Shown here piece by piece: positions 3,166 to 45,646 of a DNA stretch of 64,000 nucleotides (position 1 is the first letter of the stretch; each line of letters opens with the position of its first letter). The position numbers were made by a program, and so were the translations under genes. Under the pieces are notes generated by a model. It did not search any database, had not been told where the DNA came from, and worked only from the letters and a program-made list of their open reading frames with translations. The DNA is from Leucosporidium creatinivorum (taxonomy: Eukaryota > Basidiomycota > Microbotryomycetes > Leucosporidiales > Leucosporidiaceae). The stretch covers positions 437,581 through 501,580 of the forward strand of contig BCKL01000005.1 of NCBI GenBank assembly GCA_001600635.1. The letters run 5' to 3'.

Positions 3166-4523
3166 ATGGAAGCGNCGAAACAGCCGAGTGACGAGGCAGG
3201 AGAAGATGCAGCCAGCCCAACTCGAGCTTCGAAGTCGAATCCGCCTTTTGATCTCTTGCGCTCACCTCGCTCGCTCGCCTCTCGCCCATCGACTAGGAAG
3301 GAAGCTCAGCCAGCTAACAAGCCTACCAGCACACCCTACGCCCGGCCCCAGCAACCTACAGAATCACCCGCCGCTGCCCTCCCTACAGAAACGCTCGTTC
3401 GCATCTTCGAGCTCGCGACGGAGGACGAAGCGTGGCCGTTCTACAAGCAGAGGGTCAGATGGAGATTCCAGAGGGTCAGCTGGCAGAGGTGGACTGCTGC
3501 AGGGAAGCAGAGGGACTTTGCTCTGGAGCGCGAGAGAGAGGTGGAGGGGCTGGTCGAGGTTCTCAGCGCCAACGGCAGAGGTGGTGTGGTGCAGAGCTTA
3601 TCGCTGTCGCATGAGTTGATGGATGGAGCCGCTGCAGGTGCTACGACGGAGCTCCTCAGGCTCTGCTCGGCGCTGAAGAAGGTAGAGTTGCAGCGAGCTG
3701 ACCGATTTGACTTCGCCAAGGGAGATGAGGAGGCTTGAGAGGCTATGCTTGGGATCAGAGAGATCAAGGAGGTGGTCTTGGTGGGTTCGCCTGAGTCGTT
3801 GACGCTCTCCGGGCGAGTTTGGGACCGTCACAGAGCTGAGCGCCGCTTGCTGACCCTCGCTCCTCAGGGTTCTACGCGCCTGGCCAACCCTGCGATCACT
3901 CACACTCAGCTGCCGTTTCGCCGATGAGCCCTATATGCTCCACTCGCGACCCACCGTTTCCCTTTGGCACCTTGACACCTTCGCCGACGTTTCTATGATC
4001 CGCTCGCTGCTCCCCTATATCGAGGACTCGGAGCTACCTTGCTCGCTCGTGGCCAGAGACTTTGACGGCTGTGTTCGTTGTCTTCTGATCCCTGAGGTAG
4101 CCGAGGCCCTTCTGCTCCTCGCCTTGCGCGGTCGTCGCTTCTCGGCGACTCGGCGACCGACCCTTGGCAGCCCTCACCTGCCTTTTACCAGCTCATCAGC
4201 AGCATGTCGGATCTACGACGACTGGAGATTTGCTATTCGGGTACACATCTGCTCCCAATAATGGCGGAACGGGGCACAATTTACCTCGCGCCGCCTCGCT
4301 TCACCAACTCGCCTCGCTCCACGAGCTTATACTCTGGCGCACGGGCCACACGGAGCGTACCGACGAGCTTACTCCTGCTATTCTCGAGATCCTGGACACC
4401 CCTCCACCCTCGCTGAGGCGCTTACAGATCGACTTGAGCCTGTTGAGCTGGACCGAGGGCGGCGAGAGGAAGAGGGCTGAGGTTGAGGAGAAGGTCAAAG
4501 CAGCTGGCATTTGGCTCGTCTAG
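3166..4523 (+). pseudogene. decayed F-box/LRR family member
   Basis: The sequence aligns by eye with the intact paralogues at 6511, 47156 and 48708: an F-box-like segment (LPTETLVRIFELA), LRR-like strands and the family C-terminus (ILDTPPPSLRRLQIDLSLLS) ending at 4523. The conserved start codon before EAQPA is AAG (3298-3300), although an in-frame ATG lies upstream at 3166. An in-frame TGA at 3736-3738 interrupts exon 1 while homology continues past it. The exon 1 donor near 3820 is not recognisable in the family phase. Exon 2 (from 3868) changes frame near 4110-4140 and again near 4270. One ambiguous base sits at 3175. Recent decay is likely; sequencing error could explain part of it. Confidence 0.65.
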
Positions 4524-19104: not shown

Positions 19105-19742
19105 TGGAGACGAGGCGAGACGACGTGAGTGGAAGAAGGGAAAGAGATCGAGCTCAAGAGCCGAGTAGCTCGCTGCTCTGATCTACCAAGCCCACTCTTC
19201 GCGACAGGATCCTCGCCCGAGCTGATCACGCCAACTTAGAGCTCGCCTCAGCCTTTGCAAGCTCGGCGCTCGGTACCTCGGTCGCGCTCCTTCTTTTCGC
19301 TTCGTCGCTTCTCTCCTCCCTCGTCGGCTGTATCGAGAAGCACATCTCTGTTCTCTGACCTATCCCTTCGCCACCGCACTTCCGAAATCCAACGGCTCTC
19401 GCTTGCTCTCTCGCTTGCTCGGCTCTAGGGTGCCCCCGGGGTTCCTTCTCCTCCTCATGCTCGACTCCACACCCCGCTTCTCGTTTTTCTGTGTATCGAA
19501 GTCGAGTCTTCGCAGCTCGACTACATCTGGTCACTATCAACGTACATCCCGTTACAAGCAAGCACCTAGTCAAGTACAAAATCGCCCTTCGCCGAGGGTT
19601 TGAATTGACCGCCGAGCGAGTCGTCCAGTCCGAGCTACGCGTATATGGGTAGAGGTGGGAAGAAGATGGAAGACGTGTGCAGCTTATGGCCGTATGAAGG
19701 GGAGCTGGGAAGCTGGAAGGCGCTATATCGAGAGTCGCCGCG

Positions 19743-20352
19743 TTATCGCCGAAGGTGCTGGCGGTTCGGTGTAGGCTGTTGGCCGAGGGGTGACCTGCGC
19801 CGAGTGTCGTCGAGGAGGTGTTGCAGAGTCGAGTCCGAGTGCAGAGATGTGATGTAGGTCGGTCGTGGGCCCGTCTCGAGGAATTCCAATGCTTCGATGT
19901 CGAAAGGGCTCAGGTCCTGCGAAGCGAGCGAGCGAGCGAAAAGACGCGGAAGGAGGGTCAGCTGGGCTGCATATGTACTGCAGCAGAGCCCTAGCAATAG
20001 CTCACCTAACAGGAGGATGCTCCGTCAACCATTCCATCGCCTTTGCAATCTCCAAATCGCGAGTGTACGAGCTCTGGCGCTTCTTGTCCATCGGCTGCGA
20101 GGACGAGGCGAGGATTGCTGAAGCCTTGTCGGTGTAGTCTGAAGCGACTTGGTGTAGGTGAGCTGCCCAACCTTCTGGTAGTGGGTTGTGGAGTGGTGCA
20201 GTCGGTACGCGGTAGGTCGAACTGTAGGTTACGCTGCTCGCCGAGCTGGAGCTGCTTGAGCTGGAGGAAGTGGAGGTGCTGCTCGAGTTGGAGTCGGTCG
20301 ACGAGGAGCGAGTTGGGAGTGGTGCGAGAGCCATGTGCTGCAGGGCGAGCAT
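19743..20352 (-). CDS. Ser-rich protein of unknown function, left copy
   Basis: Mirror copy of the gene at 25921. Exon 1 (20352-20011) starts MLALQHMALAPLPTR, runs through a poly-Ser tract and then PLPEGWAAHLHQVASDYTDK. Exon 2 (19916-19743) begins DLSPFDIEALEFLETG and ends RSPLGQQPTPNRQHLRR, a tail different from that of the other copy because the arms diverge at 19822. 171 residues. LPEGW resembles the start of a WW domain, but the second Trp is absent. No signal peptide or membrane span. Confidence 0.5.
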
Positions 20353-20520
20353 GTAGCTTGTAGACGCGAGAGAAGAGCGAAAGTTGGAGGAAGAAGAGAG
20401 TCGAAACTTGGACGCGCGGCGCTCAAGACCTCGGGGGCTCGGCGTTCGGCGGCGGGGTCGAAGGTGAGGTTTTGTGGGTTCGGGGAGGCGACAGAAGGGC
20501 GGTGCAGCTTTTGTTCTGCT

Positions 20521-20770
20521 NCAGGCAAGTGTGTGGTAGAAAGCCAAGCCTCTCTGCAACACCTCCACTACAAATCTCTGACTCAATGAGGAAACGAGGG
20601 CCTCGAATGGGGATCGCAGCTCGGTCAGCAGCTTCGGCGGGGGCCAGCGGGGGAGGCTGACTGTTGCACTTCGGGGGCGATCTTGTGGCCCCGCGCGCCG
20701 AGGNTTNANCTGTAGNNGANANNGNATCTGCAGCTCTGTAGCTCTGTACAGGCCNCGACTCTCNCTNGAA
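20521..20770. other. cluster of ambiguous bases inside the left repeat arm
   Basis: About a dozen isolated N calls lie at 20704-20767 plus one at 20521, not one long gap run. Each has a mirrored N in 25503-25570 or at 25752. Scattered single Ns mark disagreement between reads, not a missing stretch. Confidence 0.9.
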
Positions 20771-21049
20771 AGCTGCTACTTCGCTGCCAGCCTCGGCTGT
20801 CGAGTTGCAGACGAGTGACAAGGTGCAACCCATGCTAACGGGCGCCGCATGTGAAACGACTCTCAAGCATCGTCTGAAGCACTCAAGGAAGCTGCCACGC
20901 CGCTTCTGAAACGACCCACAGAGGCAGCGCCGAAGTGGATCTCAGGCTCATCGCTTCGCCGAGCTTCGACGGAGAAGAGCACGGAAACGGAAAGGTTACA
21001 GCAAAAGTCTATGGTGCGTGTTTGATGTCGTGTATCGTATCGAGAAGCT

Positions 21050-21458
21050 CAAGCAGAGTTCAGCTTGGCGCTCTGTAGGCCGGGCTGCTCGGTCGATGCT
21101 GGCGAGGGGATTCGGGGCGATTTGGACAAGCTGGCGAGGGAGGCGAGAGTCGCGCTGTGATATGAGGAGGATAATTGAGGTGCAACTTCTCGTTTTTCGT
21201 CCTCTTGCGAGCGTGGGAGCTGACTCGGTCGCTGCTCGCAGGCGGCCTCGGTCGGCGCGACGAAGAGAGCAAGGCTGCGGAGTGGTCAGCCAGCATATAG
21301 CATCGCACAGCTCGTATGGCAACCAACCATACAGTAATCTAGAGACTCAGCAGTGCAGCTCTCGGCGTTTGAGCTTGCAAAAACCCTGGTGAGCTTGCGA
21401 ATTCGGCGACGGTCTGTTCATGTCAGGCTTCATACGATGAGCCCTAGCCCCTCGCTCC
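21050..21458. other. intergenic between repeat arm and membrane-protein gene
   Basis: First unique sequence inside the inverted repeat, downstream of the minus-strand four-TM gene. I see no coding frame I would defend. Confidence 0.35.
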
Positions 21459-22443
21459 TCATCTACTCCTGCTTCTACCCGGACTGTCCATCCTGCCCAG
21501 CTGGTACGCCTCGACCCTCCTCGCCCCCGGCTGCTCCCCGCCGAACCTCATCCGCCCATCTCCCCCGGCCATCTCATCGCCTGAGCCGAATTGCTCCAAA
21601 GCGGAGGCGGCGACGCCCATGCGGAACTCTTCTTCCTCGCCCTCGGTCAAGTCGTCAGACGAGGAGAGGTCGACTGGACGAGGGTTTTGATAGAGGAGAG
21701 GTCGATTCGGCGAAGGATTGAGCTGGACGGGAAGGGGCGGAGGATTGACCAGAGGATTGCGGAACATGCGGATGAAAAGGATGAGCTGGATGGTGGCGAG
21801 GAAGATGTTGAAGCAGGCAATCTGTCACCAAGGAGGAGGGTCAGCATGCGAACGAGGTTCGGTGAAGGTCCGAGACGAACGACGAGAGGCCCGACTCGGA
21901 ACCAGGCGTATTTGGACGGGCAGTCGACGGTACATCCCATGTTGAACACCATCTCGGGGTTAAGAGCTTTGGCCTTGAAGTACAGGACAATTAAGAGCGC
22001 CGAGGTAGCGAGCGAGCAGAACTCAAGCCGAGCGATGTCCAGGATAAGTTGGATCGGATCTTGCAAGGTGCTGTGGCGGATTTCATCAGCTGGATTTGAT
22101 CCCTACTGTCCCGAGCCGCCCTCACCGAAAGTCGTGGCTTAGCAAGCCCGTGAAGATGAGGGAGAGTAGAGCGAACGCCGCTCCTCCTCCGTATTCCCAC
22201 CAGATGACACGATGGTACAGCAGGACATATCTCCCCTGTCGAGTAGTATAGCTAGCATCCTCCCCTGCTCCCACGACATCCAGAACGACCTACAAGAAAA
22301 GCGGTGGATCCGAGCACCCCGAGCGCCCCGAGTGAAGCAGCGCAACCAGCTGCGATGAGTCCCCAAGCTTGATGTTTGACCTTGATGTGCTCTGGTAGTT
22401 GCTGGATCGCTTTGATCTCCGCCGGCGAGATGTAGGCCTCCAT
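21459..22443 (-). CDS. four-span membrane protein of unknown function
   Basis: Exons 22443-22294, 22235-22126, one starting near 22070 and a last one ending at 21459 keep frame and give about 240 residues. Four hydrophobic segments are visible: GLIAAGCAASLGALGVLGST, AAFALLSLIFTGLL, SLATSALLIVLYFKA and CFNIFLATIQLILFI. The second extracytoplasmic-type loop holds two Cys (MGCTVDCPSKYAWF), which may form a disulfide. The tail is Pro-rich and then acidic (SSSDDLTEGEEEEF), probably cytosolic. The topology recalls MARVEL/tetraspan proteins but no family motif convinces me. It is divergent from PDC, with starts 313 bp apart. Confidence 0.7.
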
Positions 22444-22756
22444 CGAGAGCGTCCAGATCAAGAGCGAAACGCATCGTTGCCTGCGAAGATGGCACCCCCT
22501 CGGACTTCTCCTGAGGCGGCTGAGCGGTCCGAGCGAGCTTGTGCTCGACTACAGAAGCACCTGCAGCACCTTCTCGGCTCTGCTTGGAGCACCTAAAAGC
22601 ATCTCGGTGGTTGCGGGGTAGCGTCATGATGGCCGAGGGAAGAGAAGCAGATTCCCTCTTCTCTCTCCCCCCATCACCTCGCGATTCAAACAGCCTGTCC
22701 AAGTACAACTCGTTCTTTCTTCCCCTCCTCCTCGTCTCCTTACTCAGCCAGCACCA

Positions 22757-25225
22757 ATGTCGTCCCCCGGCAAACTCCAGGACAACGAGGTCTACCTCGC
22801 TTCCTACCTTATTGAGAGGCTTCTCCAGCTCGGCGTTAAGTGCATGTTTGGAGTCCCTGGAGACTTCAACTTGGTCTTTCTGGACGAGGTAGAGGCTCAC
22901 CCCAAGTTCGAGTGGCTGGGATGCTGCAACGAGCTCAATTCGGGATACGCCGCCGACGGATATGCTCGCGTGAAGCAGGTGAGTCTCTCGATCCCAGCGG
23001 GCGCATAGGGTGTAGCTAACAGGCTTGCACTACAGTCCCAGGCCAACTCTACCGGCAGCAACGGCGACCGCACCACTCAGGGAGGCGTCAAAGGTTCGTC
23101 GTCGCTAGACCGAGAGTCGACCGAATCACCGCTGATTGAGATCTCTCTACAGGTCTCGCCGCCCTCTGCACCACCTTCGGAGTCGGAGAGCTCAGCGCCA
23201 TGAACGCCATCGCCGGAGCCTACTCGGAGCGAGTCCCCATCCTTCACATCGTCGGCGCTCCCTCGACCTCGGCGCAAAAGAACGGTTTCCTCCTGCACCA
23301 CACGCTCGGAGATGGCAAGTTCAACGTTTTCAAGACGGCGACTATGGGCGTCACCGCTGCTCAGGCATTCCTCGAGTCGGGCGACAATGCTGCCGAGGAG
23401 ATCGACCGAGTTCTGAGGGTCGCTCTCGAGACTGTGAGGCGCTCTCTTGCGCTCGAGCCAGACTATACAGCTGACGAGCTCACCTTAACACTGCAGGCCC
23501 GCCCTACCTACATGACTCTCCCCACCGACCTCGTCTACGCCCCCGTCTCGAAGACTCGGCTCGACACCCCCGTCATCCCTCCCGCGCCCACTGTGCACGA
23601 CAAGTCGACTCTTCCCACCGGCATCAAGCTCGAGGATGGAGATGTTGAAAAGCTCAACTTTGTTAGCGACGAGATCGAGCGTCTCTGGTCCACCGCCAAG
23701 AACCCTATCCTCATCGTGAGTTCTTCGTTAGCCGTGGTCGACTTCTCGGCTGACTTGAAGCCTTCTATCCTAGGTCGACGCTTGCGCCATCCGCTACGGA
23801 GTAGCTCATCTCGTCCGCGACCTGATTGATGCCACCAAGGTCAAGGTGAGCAGCCCACTAGACGGAAAACTCGGCTCGGCGCTGACCTCATCCACTCTTG
23901 CAGTACTTCTCCACCCCCATGGGCAAGGGAGTCATGCACGAGGATCCTACACACGGCTTCGGTGGAGTCTACGTCGGTGCCATCTCCGACCCGGACGTCA
24001 AGAAGGCTGTCGAAGCCGCCGATTTGACGATTATGGTCGGCGCGATCAAGTCCGACTTCAACACGGGCGAGTTCTCGTACGAGTTTGACACCAAGAAGCT
24101 CATCGAGCTCCACAGCGACCACACGGTCGTCCAGTACGCCGACTACCCCGGCGTCTCGTTCCACACTCTCCTTCCCGCCCTCGCTCGCTCGCTCAAGGCC
24201 AAGGAGGTGGAACCCACCGCTGAGCATGCTGGTCTCGTTCGCAAGATCCCCGATGGACCCAAGGATGAGATGGTCAAGCAAGAGGCGTTCTGGCCGCTTT
24301 GGGGACAGTTCTTCAAAGAGGACGACATCATCATCGCTGGTGAGCTTCGGACTCGTGGTCGACGCCGAGAACCGCTTGCTGATCCTTTCTTGCCATTGCA
24401 GAGACCGGAACCTCTTCGTTCGGCATGATTGATACTCCTATTCCTCGCGGCGGAACCTTCGTATCGCAGGTGAGTGGTTCTAATCGCCTTTGCGCCGAGC
24501 AGCGAGCTCACGATGCTCTTCCCCTCTGCAGGTCCTCTGGGGCTCGATTGGTTGGGCTGGAGGAGCTCTCCTGGGCTGTCTGCTTGCTGCTCGCGAGGCC
24601 GGCTACCCTCGTCGTACCATCCTCTTCATCGGCGACGGTTCTCTGTGAGTTGAAGCTGCCTCGAAGTGTCGCCGAGCTACGAGGACTGACCCGCTTCCTC
24701 GCTCCACAGCCAACTCACCGTCCAGGAGATCGCCACCATGCTGAGGCATGACCTCTGCCCCATCATTGTCCTCCTCAACAACGACGGCTGTTCGTCTCTA
24801 CCTCGACTCGATCCAGCTTCGACCGCTCGCTGACCTCCCTCATACTCTTCAACAGACGTGATCGAGCGCCTCATCCACGGCCCCGAGGCCGTCTACAACG
24901 ACATCTCGCGCTGGAAGTGGCAGGAGCTGCTCAACTTCTTCAACGCCGACGGCCACCCTCACAAGACCTGGCTCGCCGAGACTCGCGGGCAGTTCGAGGA
25001 GATTCTCGGCAACGAGGACTTCGCCAGGGCGGACAAGTGCCAGTTGATTGAGGTCAAGATGGATAGGCTCGATGCGCCCCGTGCGCTGCAGCTTCAGGCT
25101 GAGATGGTGCGTGCAGTAGTTCGGTCCTCACATCGGCCGATGCGCTCGGGACGATCTGGCGCAGAGACCGAGGCTGACTGCCTTTGCTTCTCGACCTACA
25201 GAGCGCCAAATTGAACTCCACCTAG
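22757..25225 (+). CDS. PDC1: pyruvate decarboxylase
   Basis: Thiamine-diphosphate enzyme converting pyruvate to acetaldehyde and CO2 in the cytosol. About ten exons give roughly 600 residues. The N-terminal PYR domain has the catalytic Glu context [16 protein letters not shown]. The paired active-site His are in [14 protein letters not shown]. The central domain starts near [14 protein letters not shown]. The ThDP/Mg-binding motif [16 protein letters not shown] ends with [10 protein letters not shown]. The C-terminus spliced after LQAEM reads SAKLNST, and its TAG sits at the junction with the right inverted-repeat arm. Every motif needed for activity is present. As the only fermentation gene here, it has no functional link to its neighbours. 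Confidence 0.96.
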
Positions 25226-27014
25226 CTTCTCGATACGATACACGACATCAAACACGCACCATAGACTTTTGCTGTAACCTTTCCGTTTCCGTGCTCTTCT
25301 CCGTCGAAGCTCGGCGAAGCGATGAGCCTGAGATCCACTTCGGCGCTGCCTCTGTGGGTCGTTTCAGAAGCGGCGTGGCAGCTTCCTTGAGTGCTTCAGA
25401 CGATGCTTGAGAGTCGTTTCACATGCGGCGCCCGTTAGCATGGGTTGCACCTTGTCACTCGTCTGCAACTCGACAGCCGAGGCTGGCAGCGAAGTAGCAG
25501 CTTTCNAGNGAGAGTCGNGGCCTGTACAGAGCTACAGAGCTGCAGATNCNNTNTCNNCTACAGNTNAANCCTCGGCGCGCGGGGCCACAAGATCGCCCCC
25601 GAAGTGCAACAGTCAGCCTCCCCCGCTGGCCCCCGCCGAAGCTGCTGACCGAGCTGCGATCCCCATTCGAGGCCCTCGTTTCCTCATTGAGTCAGAGATT
25701 TGTAGTGGAGGTGTTGCAGAGAGGCTTGGCTTTCTACCACACACTTGCCTGNAGCAGAACAAAAGCTGCACCGCCCTTCTGTCGCCTCCCCGAACCCACA
25801 AAACCTCACCTTCGACCCCGCCGCCGAACGCCGAGCCCCCGAGGTCTTGAGCGCCGCGCGTCCAAGTTTCGACTCTCTTCTTCCTCCAACTTTCGCTCTT
25901 CTCTCGCGTCTACAAGCTACATGCTCGCCCTGCAGCACATGGCTCTCGCACCACTCCCAACTCGCTCCTCGTCGACCGACTCCAACTCGAGCAGCACCTC
26001 CACTTCCTCCAGCTCAAGCAGCTCCAGCTCGGCGAGCAGCGTAACCTACAGTTCGACCTACCGCGTACCGACTGCACCACTCCACAACCCACTACCAGAA
26101 GGTTGGGCAGCTCACCTACACCAAGTCGCTTCAGACTACACCGACAAGGCTTCAGCAATCCTCGCCTCGTCCTCGCAGCCGATGGACAAGAAGCGCCAGA
26201 GCTCGTACACTCGCGATTTGGAGATTGCAAAGGCGATGGAATGGTTGACGGAGCATCCTCCTGTTAGGTGAGCTATTGCTAGGGCTCTGCTGCAGTACAT
26301 ATGCAGCCCAGCTGACCCTCCTTCCGCGTCTTTTCGCTCGCTCGCTCGCTTCGCAGGACCTGAGCCCTTTCGACATCGAAGCATTGGAATTCCTCGAGAC
26401 GGGCCCACGACCGACCTACATCACATCTCTGCACTCGGACTCGACTCTGCTACACCACCACCACCCTCGGCCGGCGTCAACAGCCTACACCGAACCGCCA
26501 GCACCTTCGGCGATAACGCGGCGACTCTCGATACAGCGCCTCCCAGCGTCCCAGCTCTCCTTCATACGGCCATAAGCTGCACACGTCTTCCATCTTCTTC
26601 CCACCTCTACCCATATACGCGTAGCTCGGACTGGACGACTCGCTCGGCGGTCAATTCAAACCCTCGGCGAAGGGCGATTTTGTACTTGATTAGGTGCTTG
26701 CTTGTAACGGGATGTACGTTGATAGTGACCAGATGTAGTCGAGCTGCGAAGACTCGACTTCGATGCACCGAAAAGTGAGAAGCGGGGTGTGGAGTCGAGC
26801 ATGAGGAGAAGGAGGAACCGGGGGGGCACCCTAGAGCCGAGCAAGCGAGAGAGCAAGCGAGAGCCGTTGCAAACGCAGAGGGGAAGGATCGCACTGAAAG
26901 GATGAAGAAGAGAGATCTGCTTCTCGTTGCAGTCGACGAGGGAGGAGAGAAGCGACGAAGCGAAAAGAAGGAGCGCGACCGAGGGCCGAGCTTGCAAAGG
27001 CTGAAGACGAGCTC
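25224..27014 (-). repeat. large inverted repeat, right arm
   Basis: Reverse-complement partner of 19239-21049. Its first bases overlap the PDC stop codon. The inner 1,227 bp are mirror-identical, including ambiguous bases; from 26451 outward the copies differ by substitutions and small indels. The arms enclose about 4.2 kb of unique sequence with PDC and a membrane-protein gene. Confidence 0.95.
25921..26575 (+). CDS. Ser-rich protein of unknown function, right copy
   Basis: Exon 1 25921-26262 and exon 2 26357-26575 give 186 residues. Exon 1 is identical to the left copy: leader MLALQHMALAPLPTR, poly-Ser tract, then LPEGWAAHLHQ and EIAKAMEWLTEHPP. Exon 2 starts DLSPFDIEALEFLETGPRPT, but after HSDSTL the frame differs from the left copy and ends ITRRLSIQRLPASQLSFIRP. 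The donor that keeps frame is GTTAGG; the stronger-looking GTGAGC four bases later would lead to an early stop. Which copy has the ancestral tail cannot be told from this window. Confidence 0.5.
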
Positions 27015-27230
27015 TGAGTCGGTGAGGTCGGCGCTGTACCTCGGTGGAGCTTGGTGAAGGATAGCTGGCAAGGAGCCTGCCGCGAAGCGTGGGCTTGTGA
27101 GATCAGAGCAGCGAGCGACTCGGCTCTTAAGCTACTCTCGCCGCTCTCCCATGGACCGCTCGGCGCTCCCCTTCGCTCTCCTTCTGCATGCGCTGGCTCA
27201 AATGAGTTGAGCTCTTCCTCTCTTGCCGTA
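26576..27230. other. outer part of right repeat arm and flank
   Basis: Mostly diverged inverted-repeat sequence to about 27014, then short unique DNA before the stop of the phospholipase gene. No convincing coding frame. Confidence 0.4.
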
Positions 27231-28815
27231 CTACCAACCACCTCCCTCCTCTCTCCTCTCCTCACCCCTCCTCCTCCACCCCACCTCATTCTCCAGCTCC
27301 CCAATCACATTCCTCAAGCTCCCCATCTCCCAATACCCTCCCACGAACCCAACATACAACATCGTCGCTCCTCCCACTCCATTGGCAATACCTAGGAGGA
27401 CCCAGATCCAGTTGAGGTACTTCAGAGGCTGATAGCTCGCTGCGAGGCAAAGCGCCGGGATGAGAAGGAGGGAGAGGGCGAAGAACCGGAGGTGAGTGTT
27501 GGAGAGGGTGGAGGTGTGGGAGTAGCAGAGGCGGAGGGTGGAGAGAAGATGGAGGAGGTCTTCTGTGCCGAGTTCTGGTGGTGGAGGGGGCAGGGCGGAG
27601 ATGAGAGAGGAGGCAGAGGTAGGGATGAAGGAGAGGGTCGACTCGAGGCCAAAGTGGTCGGAGTAGGAGACGCTGAGGCCAGGTACTAGCTCGGTGAGGA
27701 CGATTTCGGTCCCTTCACAGCGCATGACGAACCCGCTGGCTAGAGGTGAGCGGTAGAGAACATAGTCGAGTCGTTTGCCGCCTCGGATGACTGTCTCGTC
27801 CCGAGGTCCTCGTTTGGCGAGTTTGGGGATGGAGTAGGTGTTGAGAGGAGAGTCGCAGGTGATGCCATGTTGTAGCATGACTTGTTCGGGGGAGAGGGAG
27901 CGGTGCGTGGAGGAAGTGATGCTCGGCGGTTCGGGGTGGGTGGTGGAGAAGGCATCGAGGAGGGAGCCGTGCTGGGTGAGGATGCGCATGATGATGCTGT
28001 AGGGCTGGGAGTTGAAGTCTCCGGTCTGTGTGTATGAGTCTTAGTAATGTAGCGACGTGAGAATTAGCGGAACGACTGACCACCAGGACATGCCTCCCCC
28101 GCTCGGCCTTCTCCCTCACAATCTTGGCCAACTCCCACGCCTGCGCTACTCGGTGCGCACCCTCCACTCCCTCTCCTTCTCCTCCTGGTGCATACATATG
28201 CGAGTTCAACACATCTACCAGCCCCACGCCCTCGACTTGAACCGTCACTCCGCATACCGACTTGCCGGCAAAGAAGTCGCCTTCGATGAAGTGAAGGGGG
28301 TGGCCGTTGAGCGAGTAGGGGTGGATGAAGGAGGAGTGAATAGGGTGCGCTGAGAGGATGGCAAGGCCGGAACCGATGGCGCCGCTGTGGAGGAGAGGTG
28401 AGCTCGGTCTGGAGTAGAGAGGCAGAGGACAGGCGCACCTGTAGAAGAAGCGACTGAACGGCAGTCCCGCCTCCTTAGCTCTAGCAGCTACTACATCGAA
28501 GTCTGCTCGGACCCAAATCTCCTGCAGGGCGATTACGTCGTAGCCGCCTCGTGTTGCTGGCGCTGGCAGGTCGTCGCTGCTCCGATCCGAGTGGTAGGAA
28601 GCCCGAGAGGCTGCAGTAGAGTTGGTATTGCCGATCCAATCTGCTATCGCTAGCAGCCGCTCCCTCCGCTTGTCGGCGACGTATTTTAATCCCCTGCGCG
28701 ACGAGAGCTGACGGTGAGCTCAGAGCCAGGGAGTTGGAGAGGATGCAGCTCACCAGCAATTGAGGGTAAGCACGCGTAGTTGCTGCAGAGGCGGCTCTGT
28801 AGCGTAATCGTCCAT
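27231..28815 (-). CDS. ISC1: inositol phosphosphingolipid phospholipase C (neutral sphingomyelinase family)
   Basis: Mg-dependent enzyme of the exonuclease/endonuclease/phosphatase fold that cleaves complex sphingolipids to ceramide. Family landmarks in order: LRVLTLNCWGLKYVADKR across the first intron, DVIALQEIWV with the metal-binding Glu, LNSHMYAPGGEGEGVEGAHR, TGDFNSQPYSIIM, RLDYVLYRSP and the catalytic Asp-His in SVSYSDHFGLEST. Two hydrophobic spans near the C-terminus (FFALSLLLIPALCLAA and WVLLGIANGVGGATMLYVGF) match the membrane anchor of fungal Isc1. Four or five exons, about 450 residues. The start ATG overlaps an ATG on the other strand within CATG at 28813-28816. Confidence 0.87.
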
Positions 28816-35998: not shown

Positions 35999-36976
35999 TC
36001 ATCCTCTCGTACTCTCCTCCTGCTTCACTCCTGCCGCGATTGACTCTGCGTTGTTCACGCCCCAGATCTTCTCGTCCTTCAGCAGCTCCTCCTTGCCCAA
36101 TCCTTGCTGTGCGAGTCCCCCTCGACCAGCCAGAGCAGCGAACACCATCCCTCGGCCGAGCGTGGGCGTTTCGATGCAGAGGGGCGTGGGAGAGAAGCGG
36201 TTGAGGAAAGACATGATCCTACTGATAGGTTGGAAGATGCACGACGACGCAAAGGTCAGCTGACGGCCTGAGGAACGAGCGCCGAGAGAGAGAAACGACG
36301 AACCCCGAGACGTTCTCAACGAGCCTTCCTTCCGCCCTTCCGCCGGGGATGATGAGCATACCGGGACGGAAGATGATAGTGTCGCTGTAGCCGAGTGATG
36401 CTAGACCTTCCTCGGTGAGCCCTTTGGACTTGAAGTAGGGGAAGAGCGAGGTGGAGGAGGCTCCGCCGGACTGTAGGGAATTCCGGGAGGATCAGCTAAG
36501 GCTCGGGATGGTAAAGCAAGCTCATATGCTTCATCTGCAACCTTCCGAGAACCTCGTTCAGAGCTTCAGAGATCAGCGAGCCGACTCACGCTGCAATAAA
36601 CCAACGTCTGCTCCTTGCCCTCGATCTTGGCCCACCTACTCGCTTCCAGCACAAACTCCCTATCAATCCTCACAAACTGCTCCATCCCCCCAGCCGCCGC
36701 CCTCGTAGTCCCCAGCGCAACGACCACCAAATCCGCCTTGACGCCGCTCAACTTGGCCTGTTCTGCTGCATCCTTCTCATCCAGGAGCTTGTTGAAATCT
36801 AGCGGGATGTGCTGGAGCTTGCTGTAGCCTGGCGTGTCTGTTGGGAGGGAAGGAGAGCGACGGCCGAGGGAAGTGACTGTCGAGACGGAGGGGGAGGAGA
36901 GAGCGGAGAGGAGCGCTTGACGGCCCGTTTCGCCTGTTGCGCCGAGCAGGAGGAGCGTTTTACTGGGAGCGGCCAT
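35999..36976 (-). CDS. FMP52: FMP52-like NAD(P)-binding protein, copy A
   Basis: Atypical short-chain dehydrogenase of the TIP30/Fmp52 group; yeast Fmp52 is a mitochondrial outer-membrane protein of unknown activity. Exon 1 holds the Rossmann glycine motif LLLGATGETGRQALLSAL and ADLVVVALGTTRAAAGGMEQ. Exon 2 starts SGGASSTSLFPYFKSKGLTE with the YxxxK-type pair, then SDTIIFRPGMLIIPGGRAEG. Exon 3 begins after a CCTATCAG acceptor as RIMSFLNRFSPTPLCIETP and ends EESTRG. About 260 residues. The second intron uses a GTTCGT donor, as does copy B at 44681. It lies head-to-tail behind the RBR gene at 37245, on the same strand, as in the other cassette copy. Confidence 0.8.
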
Positions 36977-37244
36977 GATGTACGAGATGGTGCTGCTGCT
37001 AAGACGAAGGAGAAGGAGAGAGTGAGCTCTCGGACTTCGAGGTGGGGGACGCGCGGCCAGTCGGCAAGGATAAGCTTCGGAGTGACGAGCTGCAGAGGCT
37101 GCAGCGACTACGAGTAGCCAGTAGGAGCCGAAGGCGAGATCCTGCAAGCCATCTCTCGCTCTCGAGGCTGCCTCGCAAGTGGGCCTCGACCGAACCATCG
37201 CCGAGCGTATCCTCAAAGCCCTTCCTAAGCATTACATCTCTTCC

Positions 37245-38398
37245 CTAAAGCTCAGCACCGGTGCAGAACATCCTACCGACCCTCATCCCCGCTCCAAGCC
37301 TCCTTGCACTCCTGCAATCGGCCATCACGGCGGAGTCAGCCTTCAACTTGCAAGCCATCGCCGAGCTCGTCGAAAGTCGGAGCTCACCTAGCCAGACTCC
37401 TCCCCCAAGCACTCCACAAACTCTCCTCGAGACAAGGGCACGAATGTTGAGGCGCGACCTGGCCACAGCGGTCGCAGAAGGTCGTTCCGCAGAGGCAGCG
37501 ACTGTTCGGCGAATCGCAATGTCAATCAGCTCGGTGTTGAGATGCGAGAGGGTGGTAGAGCTTACACAGAGGGACAGCCATCAATTCGGGAGACGATGCG
37601 GCAACAGGAAGGACAGCGACGAGCTCGGTTCTGCTTCATTAGCTTGAGAGCAACTTGCTCCTCCGTGTCGGGCTGGCACGGCATGTCGGGGCCGTGCTGT
37701 CGTTCATCGAAGGGTCAGCTCAATCGGGACACACCTCAGACCAGCGAACGACCCACCCAAGCACCCCGACAAGCCAAACACGTCCCCCTCCCACACCTCC
37801 CACACTCTCCCTCCCTCGGCGCTCCCTCCCTCCCCCCAAGAAAAGCTCCACACCCCCTCCAATCACTGCACCAGACCTTCTCTCCCGTCGTCTCCCATTC
37901 CCTCTTCCTCCCCTCCCAGTCGAGCTTCTCCTCATCACTCAGCACCTTCTCAATCAGCTCGAAAGGAATCGGCGCCGAGCAGCAAGAGGGAGGAGCTGCG
38001 CGGGAGGAGAGGAGGAGAGCGCGGAGGCAGTGTGGGCAGAAGATGTGGGTGCAGGGGAGCTGGATGGGGTCTGTAGGCGAGGAGCTGATGCTGGAGAACC
38101 AGGTAGACGGCGAGGGCGAGGGCGAGAGGAGGAGAGGCGAGAGGCAGATGAGGCAGATGGTCTGTACGGCTCTGAGAGTCAGCTTGAAGCCAGCGAGAGA
38201 AAAGAACACTAAGGGCACCAGGGAAGAAGTAGACTCGACATCATACACTCGACCGAGCTCCCCTTGGCCCTCGCTGGCCGGCGTACTAGAGCTCTCCTCT
38301 TCTGCCCCTTCGAAGACGACTGGCTCGACGTGCTGTGGTGTGGTAGGCTCGGCGAGAGGTGCAGGAGGGAGGCAGAGGACTGCTATGTCGAGATCCAT
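37245..38398 (-). CDS. RBR E3 ligase-like protein, copy A
   Basis: Five exons. N-terminal leader MDLDIAVLCLPPAPLAEPTT; RING1 as CLICLS...LPCTHIFCPHCLRALL, with a closing Cys pair in PPSCCSAP. The in-between region is WCSDWRGCGAFLGG plus GECGRCGRGTCLACRGAW. RING2 is CPSCCRIVSRIDGCPSV, then RCLCGTTFCDRCG. The tail SARRLGAGMRVGRMFCTGAEL is followed by TAG at 37245. About 310 residues. The acceptor Cys in DGC is kept, but the His two residues later in active RBR ligases is Ser here (CPS). It is the inverted partner of 43237-44395 and fully open, so probably expressed, though the ligase activity is in doubt. Confidence 0.8.
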
Positions 38399-38720
38399 CC
38401 TTGCCGGCGGCGACGGCGTGAGATGACTAGAACAAGCGAAGAGGCAGGAGGGAGAAAGAGAGAGGGGAGAGCTCGGCGTAAGGTCGTCTCGAACCGGCAG
38501 GAGGTCGAGTGCTCGCTGCTTGAGCTTTGTCGAGCTACAAGGTTGAAGCAGCTAGAGCAGCTCAGCAGCTGCACGTCGACCGACAAGCCCAATTCCCTGC
38601 AGCTCTCGTCCGAGCTCGGCTCAGCGCCGCCGCTCGCGCTCGTCGCCTCTCCCGAGTCTGCTCTCTTCCCAAGATAACGAAGCCACGTCGGCCTTACGGC
38701 CCCCCTCCCTCATCTCCCCA

Positions 38721-42677: not shown

Positions 42678-43236
42678 GCTGGAGATGAGATGAGCGACGA
42701 CGAGGAGGAGCGGAAGAGAAGGGCGCGTCCAAATCTTGGAGCATTGAATTTCTGCACCTCACTCGACTGACTCGCAAGTGGGCTGGGACTGCTCAGCAAT
42801 AGTCTCGTGAAGCAGAGTAGGCTCCTGGTGTACGTAATTAGCCTCAGCTGTCGGAGAAGAGCTGAAAGACCGGAGAGGAGCGGGCACGCAAGATCTGCTG
42901 GCGAGCATTCTCGCAGGGTCTGAGTGGGCTGAGCTGAACGTGTTAGAGCCAAGATGCTGTGTAGTGGACGCCGAGCGACGTAGAGGCACCAGATGAGAAA
43001 CGAGCGAGGAAACTGGGGAGCCGAGCTATCGCCGAGAAGGCTTTAGAGCGCTAGGAGTCGGTCTAAGCTTTGGAAGACGATACAGCGGGACGAAATACTT
43101 CTCTCGGCATCTGAGTGGCTCGAGAGCCCAGTGAGTCGCTTGCCAGCCTCACCAAACGCCCTCGCCGAGCTCGCTTTTCCTTCTCTCTCTCCTGCCCCTT
43201 CGCTCTGCTCATCTCACGCCGTCGCGGCCGACAAGT
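42678..43236. other. divergent promoter region
   Basis: Between the bL9m and RBR copy B start codons. The last ~90 bp before 43237 resemble the matching sequence upstream of 38398, so the duplicated cassette includes part of the promoter. No supported gene. Confidence 0.45.
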
Positions 43237-44395
43237 ATGGATCTTGACATAGCAGTCCTCTACCTCCCTCCTACAGCTCTCGCCGAGCCTACCGCCTCAC
43301 AGCACACTGAGCCAGTCGTCTTCGAAGGGGCAGCGGAGGAGAGCTCTAGTACGCCAGCCAGCGAGGGCGAAGGGGAGCTCGGTCGAGTGTATGATGTTGA
43401 GTCTACTTCTTCCCTGGTGCGCCTCAGTCTTCTTTTCTCTCGCTGGCTTCAAGCTGACTCTCAGAGCCGTACAGACGACCTGTCTCATCTGCCTCTCGCC
43501 TCTCCTTCTCTCGCCCTCGCCCTCGCCTTCCTCGTGGCTCTCCAACATCAGCTCCTCCTGCTCCGACCCCATCCAGCTCCCCTGCACCCACATCTACTGC
43601 CCGCCCTGTCTCCGCCGCCTCCTCCTCTCCTCCCGCGCAGCTCCTCCCTCTTGCTGCTCGGCGCCGATTCCTTTCGAGCTGATTGAGAAGGTGCTGAGTG
43701 ATGAGGAGAAGCTCGACTGGGAGGGGAGAAAGAGGGAATGGGATACGACGGGAGAGAAGGTCTGGTGCAGTGATTGGAGGGGGTGTGGAGCTTTTCTTGG
43801 GGGGAGGGAGGGAGCGCCGAGGGAGGGAGAGTGTGGGAGGTGTGGGAGGGGAACGTGTTTGGCTTGTCGGGGTGCTTGGGTGGGTCGTTCGCTGGTCTGA
43901 GGTATGTCCACATTGAGCTGACCCTTCGATGAACGACAGCACGGCCCCGACATGCCCTGCCAGCCCGACACGGAGGAGGAGGTAGCGACTAAGCTAATGA
44001 AGCAGAACCGAGCTCGTCGCTGTCCTTCCTGTCGCCGCATCGTCTCCCGCATCGACGGCTGTCGATTTGTGTACGTCGCCGTCTCATCCCTCCCTCCCTC
44101 CGTCTCTTCTCAGCTGATCCTCCCGCGCGCCGCCGAGCAGCGACTGCCTCTGCGGCCACACCTTCTGCGACCGCTGTGGCCGAGGGGTGCTCGAGCATGC
44201 GTGCGAGTGTGTAGCTACAGGAGCGGAAGACGAGCTCGAGTGGGTTTGGAATATCTGGGGAAGGAGGATGGCGAGGTGAGTTCCCGTTTGAGGGGAGCTC
44301 GGCGATGAGTTCGGCGAGCTGACTTGACTGGGTTGGCGGCTTGCAGGAGCGCAAGGAAGCTGGGAAGCGTGTTCTGTGTTACGGCTGAGGCTTAG
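43237..44395 (+). CDS. RBR E3 ligase-like protein, copy B
   Basis: Inverted paralogue of 37245-38398. Exon 1 (43237-43388) starts MDLDIAVLYLPPTALAEPTA; exon 2 starts at 43465 and contains RING1 (CLICLS...LPCTHIYCPPCLRRLL) and the in-between WCSDWRGCGAFLGG block, ending ACRGAW. Exon 3 begins HGPDMPCQPDTEEEVATKLM and carries CPSCRRIVSRIDGCRFV. Exon 4 has DCLCGHTFCDRCGRGVLEHA. A short last exon ends GSVFCVTAEA. About 310 residues. RING2 keeps the acceptor Cys, but the residue at the usual His is Phe (CRF), so the two copies lost it independently or diverged after losing it. An FMP52-like gene follows 285 bp downstream on the same strand. Confidence 0.8.
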
Positions 44396-44680
44396 TGAGA
44401 AGGAGGTAGTGGGGCGATCGGAGTACAGGAACCTTGGATCTTGCCGAGCGGGTCCGACGGCGAAGATAAGGAGAGACCGAGAGAGAGTGTCCAAGTCCTT
44501 CTGCTGTCGAATGAAGTGATCACAACGAGTGGTGCAGCTTCTTGGGGCACCATCGCAGTGCACTACAGAACCCGCAGCTTCAAGCTCTATCCCCCACACC
44601 TCGTCTTTCTGACCCGCCTCGTCCCTCTCTTTCTTCGTCTCCTTCTCCTTCGTCTTAGCAGCAGCACCATCTCGTACATC

Positions 44681-45646
44681 ATGGCCACTCCCAGCAGAAC
44701 GCTCCTCCTGCTCGGCGCAACAGGCGAAACGGGCCGTCAAGCGCTCCTCTCCGCTCTCTCCTCCCCCTCCATCTCGACCGTCACTTCCCTCGGCCGTCGC
44801 TCCCCTTCTCTCCCGACCGACACACCAGGCCACAGCAAGCTCCAGCACATCCCGCTAGATTTCAACAAGCTCCTAGACGAGAAGGATGCAGCAGAACAGG
44901 CCAAGTTGAGCGGCGTCAAGGCGGATTTGGTGGTCGTTGCGCTGGGGACTACGAGAGCAGCGGCGGGCGGGATGGAGCAGTTTGTGAGGATTGATAGGGA
45001 GTTTGTGCTGGAAGCGAGTAGGTGGGCCAAGGTCGAGGGCAAGGAGCAGACGTTGGTTTATTGCAGCGTGAGTCGATCTCTTCCTCGTTTGCAGGCGTCT
45101 AGCTCGATTGCAAGGGCTCGCAAGGGTTGCAGAGGCATCAACCGCCAAGCTGTAGCAAGCTGACCTTTTCCCGTCCACTTCTTTGCTCCCCACATGGCCA
45201 CACAGTCCTCCGGCGCCGCTTCCTCCTCCTTCATCCCCTACTCGAAGTCCAAGGGCCTCACCGAAGAAGGACTCGCTTCCCTAGGCTATACCGACACCGT
45301 CATCTTCCGCCCGGGCATGCTCGTCGTTCCCGGCGGTCGCGCCGAGCATCGTCTCGTCGAGTCCCTCGCTGCGTTCGTCCCCTCTCCCCTTCTCCCTTCT
45401 TTCTCCTCCGCTGACGAGTTAGCGGTGTCAAACAGCAAGGTCACCGGCTTCCTTTCCCTTATCTCCTCCTCCATCGAGATCAAGACCCCCGTCCTCGGCA
45501 ACGCCATGATCTTCGCCGCCCTCGCTGGTCGCGCCGAGCTCGCCAAGCAGGGGTTGGGAAAGGCGGAGGTGCTTAAAGGACATAAGGTGTGGACGCTGGG
45601 GAATGCAGATGCGATGAAGGCGGGAGCGAAGGACCAAAAGCTCTGA
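44681..45646 (+). CDS. FMP52: FMP52-like NAD(P)-binding protein, copy B
   Basis: Three exons, about 260 residues, nearly identical to copy A in exon 1 (MATPSRTLLLLGATGETGRQ). Exon 2 after a CACACAG acceptor reads SSGAASSSFIPYSKSKGLTE and VIFRPGMLVVPGGRAEHRLV. Exon 3 reads KVTGFLSLISSSIEIKTPVL and ends GAKDQKL. The glycine-rich dinucleotide loop and the Tyr-x-x-x-Lys-like SKSKG region are kept, so binding of NAD(P) is likely; the substrate is unknown. Exon 3 differs most from copy A, so the C-terminal half may be under weaker constraint. It is convergent with the F-box gene ending at 45919. Confidence 0.8.

Follow-up and report, generated by a model that had tools for sequence, protein, structure and literature searches.

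The window, by which we mean the whole stretch of 64,000 nucleotides that was analysed (C5:437581-501580, in a genome of 27.7 Mb and 63 contigs that, to judge by its gene content, looks like the nuclear genome of a fungus), carries a pyruvate decarboxylase (PDC) gene with several short introns at 22757-25225 on the plus strand, its start and intron borders being read by eye. Two of its exons match TPP_enzyme_N and TPP_enzyme_M (Pfam), and the comparison of one exon with solved structures gave a pyruvate decarboxylase as the best match. The gene is flanked by the arms of an inverted repeat, of which the inner parts, 19823-21049 on the minus strand and 25224-26450 on the plus strand, are perfect reverse complements over 1,227 bp. 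This is the longest mirror run, and its coordinates sum to 46273, precisely the register that the original prediction had given. A repeat search of the window returned a call of arms of 1,241 nt (19809-21049 / 25224-26464), a length at which chance occurrence of an inverted repeat is irrelevant. The outer arms (19151-19822, minus strand; 26451-27133, plus strand) are diverged and carry indels, and the divergence between the arms rises outward from the inner tract, the aligned blocks being 97% identical at 19390-19781 (392 bp), 94% at 19276-19354 (79 bp), and 88% at 19151-19217 (67 bp). The repeat, earlier placed at 19239-27014, is therefore present but reaches further on both sides, to 19151 and 27133. 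Own-genome searches with window positions 20000-22000 and 25100-27300 gave no third copy of the arm sequence among the matches listed. A Pfam scan of reading frames from the arms found no family; the right inner arm holds an ORF of 116 residues (25921-26271), the last 89 residues of which were without a Pfam match.

The identical tract starts within the stop codon of the last PDC exon, the start and exon borders again being set by eye. This exon, placed by inference at 25202-25225 on the plus strand (AGC GCC AAA TTG AAC TCC ACC TAG), would encode SAKLNST followed by the stop. At the inner edge of the left arm, a homologue of the last exon lies on the minus strand together with a splice acceptor (21049-21082); its exon part, 21049-21072, reads AGC GCC AAG CTG AAC TCT GCT TGA and encodes SAKLNSA and a stop. 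The homologue has two synonymous changes in its first five codons and a stop of its own, the rest of the gene being absent, and the segment 21049-21082 could be a fossil exon. The idea that 21090-22640 might preserve what is left of a second PDC gene was rejected: when the entire PDC stretch was compared by blastn with 7-base words, no hit outside the last exon had an E value below 0.4, and a tblastn query of 342 residues, joined from three exons and covering part of the protein, matched nothing there. Since the left edge carries a mirror version of the last exon and no further PDC remnant, the duplicated unit consists of one form of the last PDC exon followed by some 1.9 kb of 3' sequence, set in inverse orientation.

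The window contains 27 ambiguous bases (N), of which each inner arm has 13 and the last lies at 3175. The claim that isolated Ns occur at mirrored positions holds for every one of the 13 in each arm, in exact register: a single N at 20521 is paired with 25752, and a cluster of 12 within 64 bp (20704-20767) is paired with 25506-25569. Two features of a collapsed repeat are thus found here, namely ambiguous bases at homologous positions (13 of 13 sites) and at least two near-identical genomic copies, represented by two arms with different flanks. The N at 3175 likewise has a mirror N at C5:425822, the two lying in a second local inverted repeat (C5:424004-427295 / 439280-442541).

We then surveyed isolated Ns in 264 kb of the assembly from 21 sources, comprising the window and 20 stretches of 10 kb. 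The 71 isolated Ns found were confined to five sources, the other 16 being without any. A near-identical assembled copy was found for 53 of them, a number in which the Ns of the left and right PDC arms and the two Ns of the 3175 pair are all counted, and 50 of these 53 read N in the partner too; with mirrored pairs counted once, 36 of 39 independent sites were shared as N. By source, the shared Ns amounted to 26/26 in the PDC arms, 2/2 in the 3175 pair, 2/2 in L018, 15/15 in L024, and 5/8 in L012. All 15 Ns of a stretch on C3 recur in an inverted partner about 9 kb away, and both Ns of a stretch on C1 recur in a copy on C5. L012 has 26 Ns, eight of which have a near-identical assembled partner base, with four of five shared against C38 and one of three against C37:30185-30488. 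Several observations count against merged copies: three of the 53 testable Ns stand opposite a plain base in every assembled partner, for 18 of the 71 (all in L012) no near-identical assembled copy was found, and some partner copies have an N opposite a plain base (six in C38 against C5, and one at C3:99046 against an A). The Ns present in one partner only indicate that merging was not perfectly symmetrical at those places.

The repeat with copies on C5, C38, and C37 relates such Ns to differences between resolved copies. The comparison spans 364 columns, 361 of them with bases in both C5 and C37, and these two copies differ at eight of the 361. The Ns of C38 fall in five testable columns, and all five are among the eight differences (P 1.1e-9), which is direct support that Ns coincide with true copy differences in another repeat of the same assembly; in the PDC arms, the N sites read N in both arms. 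Against this are counted the remaining three differences, at which C38 has no N and carries the C5 base, and two Ns shared with C38 (L012:512 and L012:521) that face a plain base in the C37 copy. Of the five L012 Ns aligned to C38, three are aligned to a further piece of C37 as well, and all three meet a plain base there. The C37 copy is partly a gap of Ns, and the C5 copy has 15 isolated Ns in the matching stretch (L012:1709-2698), which is expected if reads of both copies went to one place; these 15 belong to the 18 for which no near-identical assembled copy was found. The sharing of Ns across copies and the result from the three-copy repeat together indicate that an isolated N in this assembly marks a site where copies disagree and were not phased.

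We consider it highly probable that reads from the inner PDC arms were merged into one consensus, with N at the differences, and that this consensus was placed in both arms of a real inverted duplication. The mirrored Ns are most likely the trace of these merged copies. On this reading, a real inverted duplication with arms of about 1.9 kb flanks the PDC gene, and the inner 1.2 kb of its arms would be so alike that reads could not be separated; the assembler or a later polishing step would have made a single consensus for both arms, written N where the two real copies differ, and put the same consensus into each arm. The 13 Ns would then be real differences between the arms, and gene conversion may keep the inner tract alike. 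The reading of a collapsed consensus placed twice, as originally proposed, gains support from the mirror N of 3175, the stretches on C3 (15/15) and C1 (2/2), and the three-copy repeat (5/5). The accompanying statement that the inner part is artificially identical stands as regards merging and needs amendment as regards identity: since reads would merge only where copies are already nearly alike, the two copies of the tract probably do agree at about 99% of their bases and differ at the Ns. Two further points count against the merged-copy explanation, namely the uneven spread of the Ns, 12 of which are packed into 64 bp, and the statement in the Pilon paper (PMC4237348) that gap filling by Pilon at default settings introduces no Ns. 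That paper also describes reads from collapsed repeats as giving mixed evidence where the true instances differ. The PDC arms resemble such a collapsed repeat in a draft assembly in that reads of several copies would be merged, with mixed evidence at the differences, but the assembly described there has fewer copies than the genome, whereas here both copies are assembled and carry the same Ns. The portions consulted of the literature on the origin of such Ns (including PMC3861042, PMC3844414, and PMC4237348) contained nothing on Ns mirrored in repeat copies and did not name the program that wrote them. The artefact is of a type already known, the duplication is an ordinary one, and the biological significance is small. 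It does, however, emphasize the caution to be exercised with this assembly, as isolated Ns flag unseparated repeat copies, and identity, orientation, and variant calls in such tracts are untrustworthy.

Gap filling is the strongest of the rival explanations, though an improbable one. One arm would have been a gap, closed by inserting the completed sequence of its counterpart, and the Ns, which would stem from poor sequence and not from differences between the arms, would have been copied along with it. Mirror identity that is exact and breaks off abruptly at 21049/25224 would result in this case too, and the sampled stretches do contain N runs with lengths of 30, 65, 1070, and at least 1080 bases; gap filling alone, however, leaves unexplained why isolated Ns are absent from 16 of the 21 sources and why the Ns of C38 fall on true copy differences. 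It is more improbable still that the whole fold-back is a misjoin and that the genome has only one arm. An identical tract could hide a join, but numerous substitutions and indels distinguish the outer arms, and the form of the last PDC exon at one inner edge is not that at the other. Both outer arms and both inner edges thus differ between left and right, and since a single locus cannot be the source of two unlike flanks on the outside and two unlike edges on the inside, two loci are implied. The inverted duplication therefore appears real as far as sequence can show, in agreement with the earlier view, based on the differing outer arms, that it probably exists. The segment between the arms might have been flipped or misplaced, and both the assembled orientation of this 4.2-kb PDC segment and its precise position should be regarded as tentative and unproved. 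That the sample was heterozygous, being diploid or dikaryotic, and that N marks sites at which alleles differ, is hardly credible, because although heterozygous sites are given as another cause of ambiguous bases in PMC4237348, allelic Ns would be expected in single-copy DNA and without mirroring, whereas isolated Ns were seen in just five of 21 sources and a second copy likewise reads N for 50 of the 53 that were testable.

Returning to merged copies, we compared the distances between Ns and resolved differences. In the PDC outer arms, differences were kept despite up to 131 identical bp between them, and the identical stretches that lie between the Ns of the PDC arms, or between these Ns and resolved differences, measure 698, 182, and 282 bp. 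This agrees with reads whose length did not suffice to connect the N sites with unique flanks. The idea that read length sharply determines which differences turn into N is not supported, since a resolved difference occurs at a distance of only 107 bp from an N in the 3175 pair and of 117 bp in the L018 pair. If the Ns are true differences, the inner tract has 13 at 1,227 sites against 64 differences (10 gaps) in the other 705 bp (Fisher P 1.2e-17), so that a clustered tract of identity lies within otherwise diverged arms, as in a gene-converted inverted repeat. On that condition, the contrast between inner and outer arms would look like gene conversion along the tract that left a single patch of 64 bp unconverted. 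From what the consulted part of PMC6790999 describes, the palindromes of mammalian sex chromosomes are similar in having a near-identical tract in inverted arms that are diverged outside it; the PDC repeat differs in being small (1.9-kb arms, 4.2-kb spacer), in belonging to another kind of genome, and in an identity that is partly an assembly product, any conversion here being putative. As a speculation that we hold to be rather unlikely, local inverted duplications in this genome might convert often, arms that are about 7-17% different elsewhere carrying near-identity tracts of 0.5-1.2 kb in three pairs, and the PDC segment might invert by recombination. Were frequent conversion true, the mirrored Ns would be the only visible differences between the arms in the tract and would serve as a map of unconverted patches.

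Other duplications are found in the window and beyond it. An inverted duplication at 36297-38478 / 43163-45379 of the window is 82-84% identical in two blocks; RING/IBR-like frames occur in both of its arms, with matches below the Pfam cut-off, and an NAD(P)-binding-like frame has a Pfam match in one arm only, also below the cut-off. The inverted pair C5:516557-518929 / 522773-525139 (L014 and L015) is 96% identical overall and includes an identical run of 1,179 bp without N, its arms being clearly diverged otherwise. No run so long was seen in 20,000 random placements of its 83 differences, and the run may reflect either complete conversion or a merge that went unmarked. On C3, an inverted pair (98791-100728 / 108058-110000) carries 15 mirrored Ns, and part of it, used as a query, had 53 matches spread over many contigs, mostly at 74-87% identity. 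In 164 kb around the window, all six alignments longer than 600 bp and above 80% identity are inverted. A general bias toward inverted over direct local duplication is not claimed, as families of diverged copies at three other sites (C1:1.00-1.43 Mb, C2:27-153 kb, and C4:4-213 kb; mostly 67-85% identical) occur in both orientations. One further 10-kb sample gave a single short match, and in this search as in those of the three families the query's own place is unlisted and long matches may be missed. The families lie largely within a few hundred kb of one contig: all 14 matches listed for the C1 family are on C1, 22 of 24 for the C4 family are on C4, and 23 of 44 for the C2 family are on C2, with the others on C5, C17, C50, C52, and C62.
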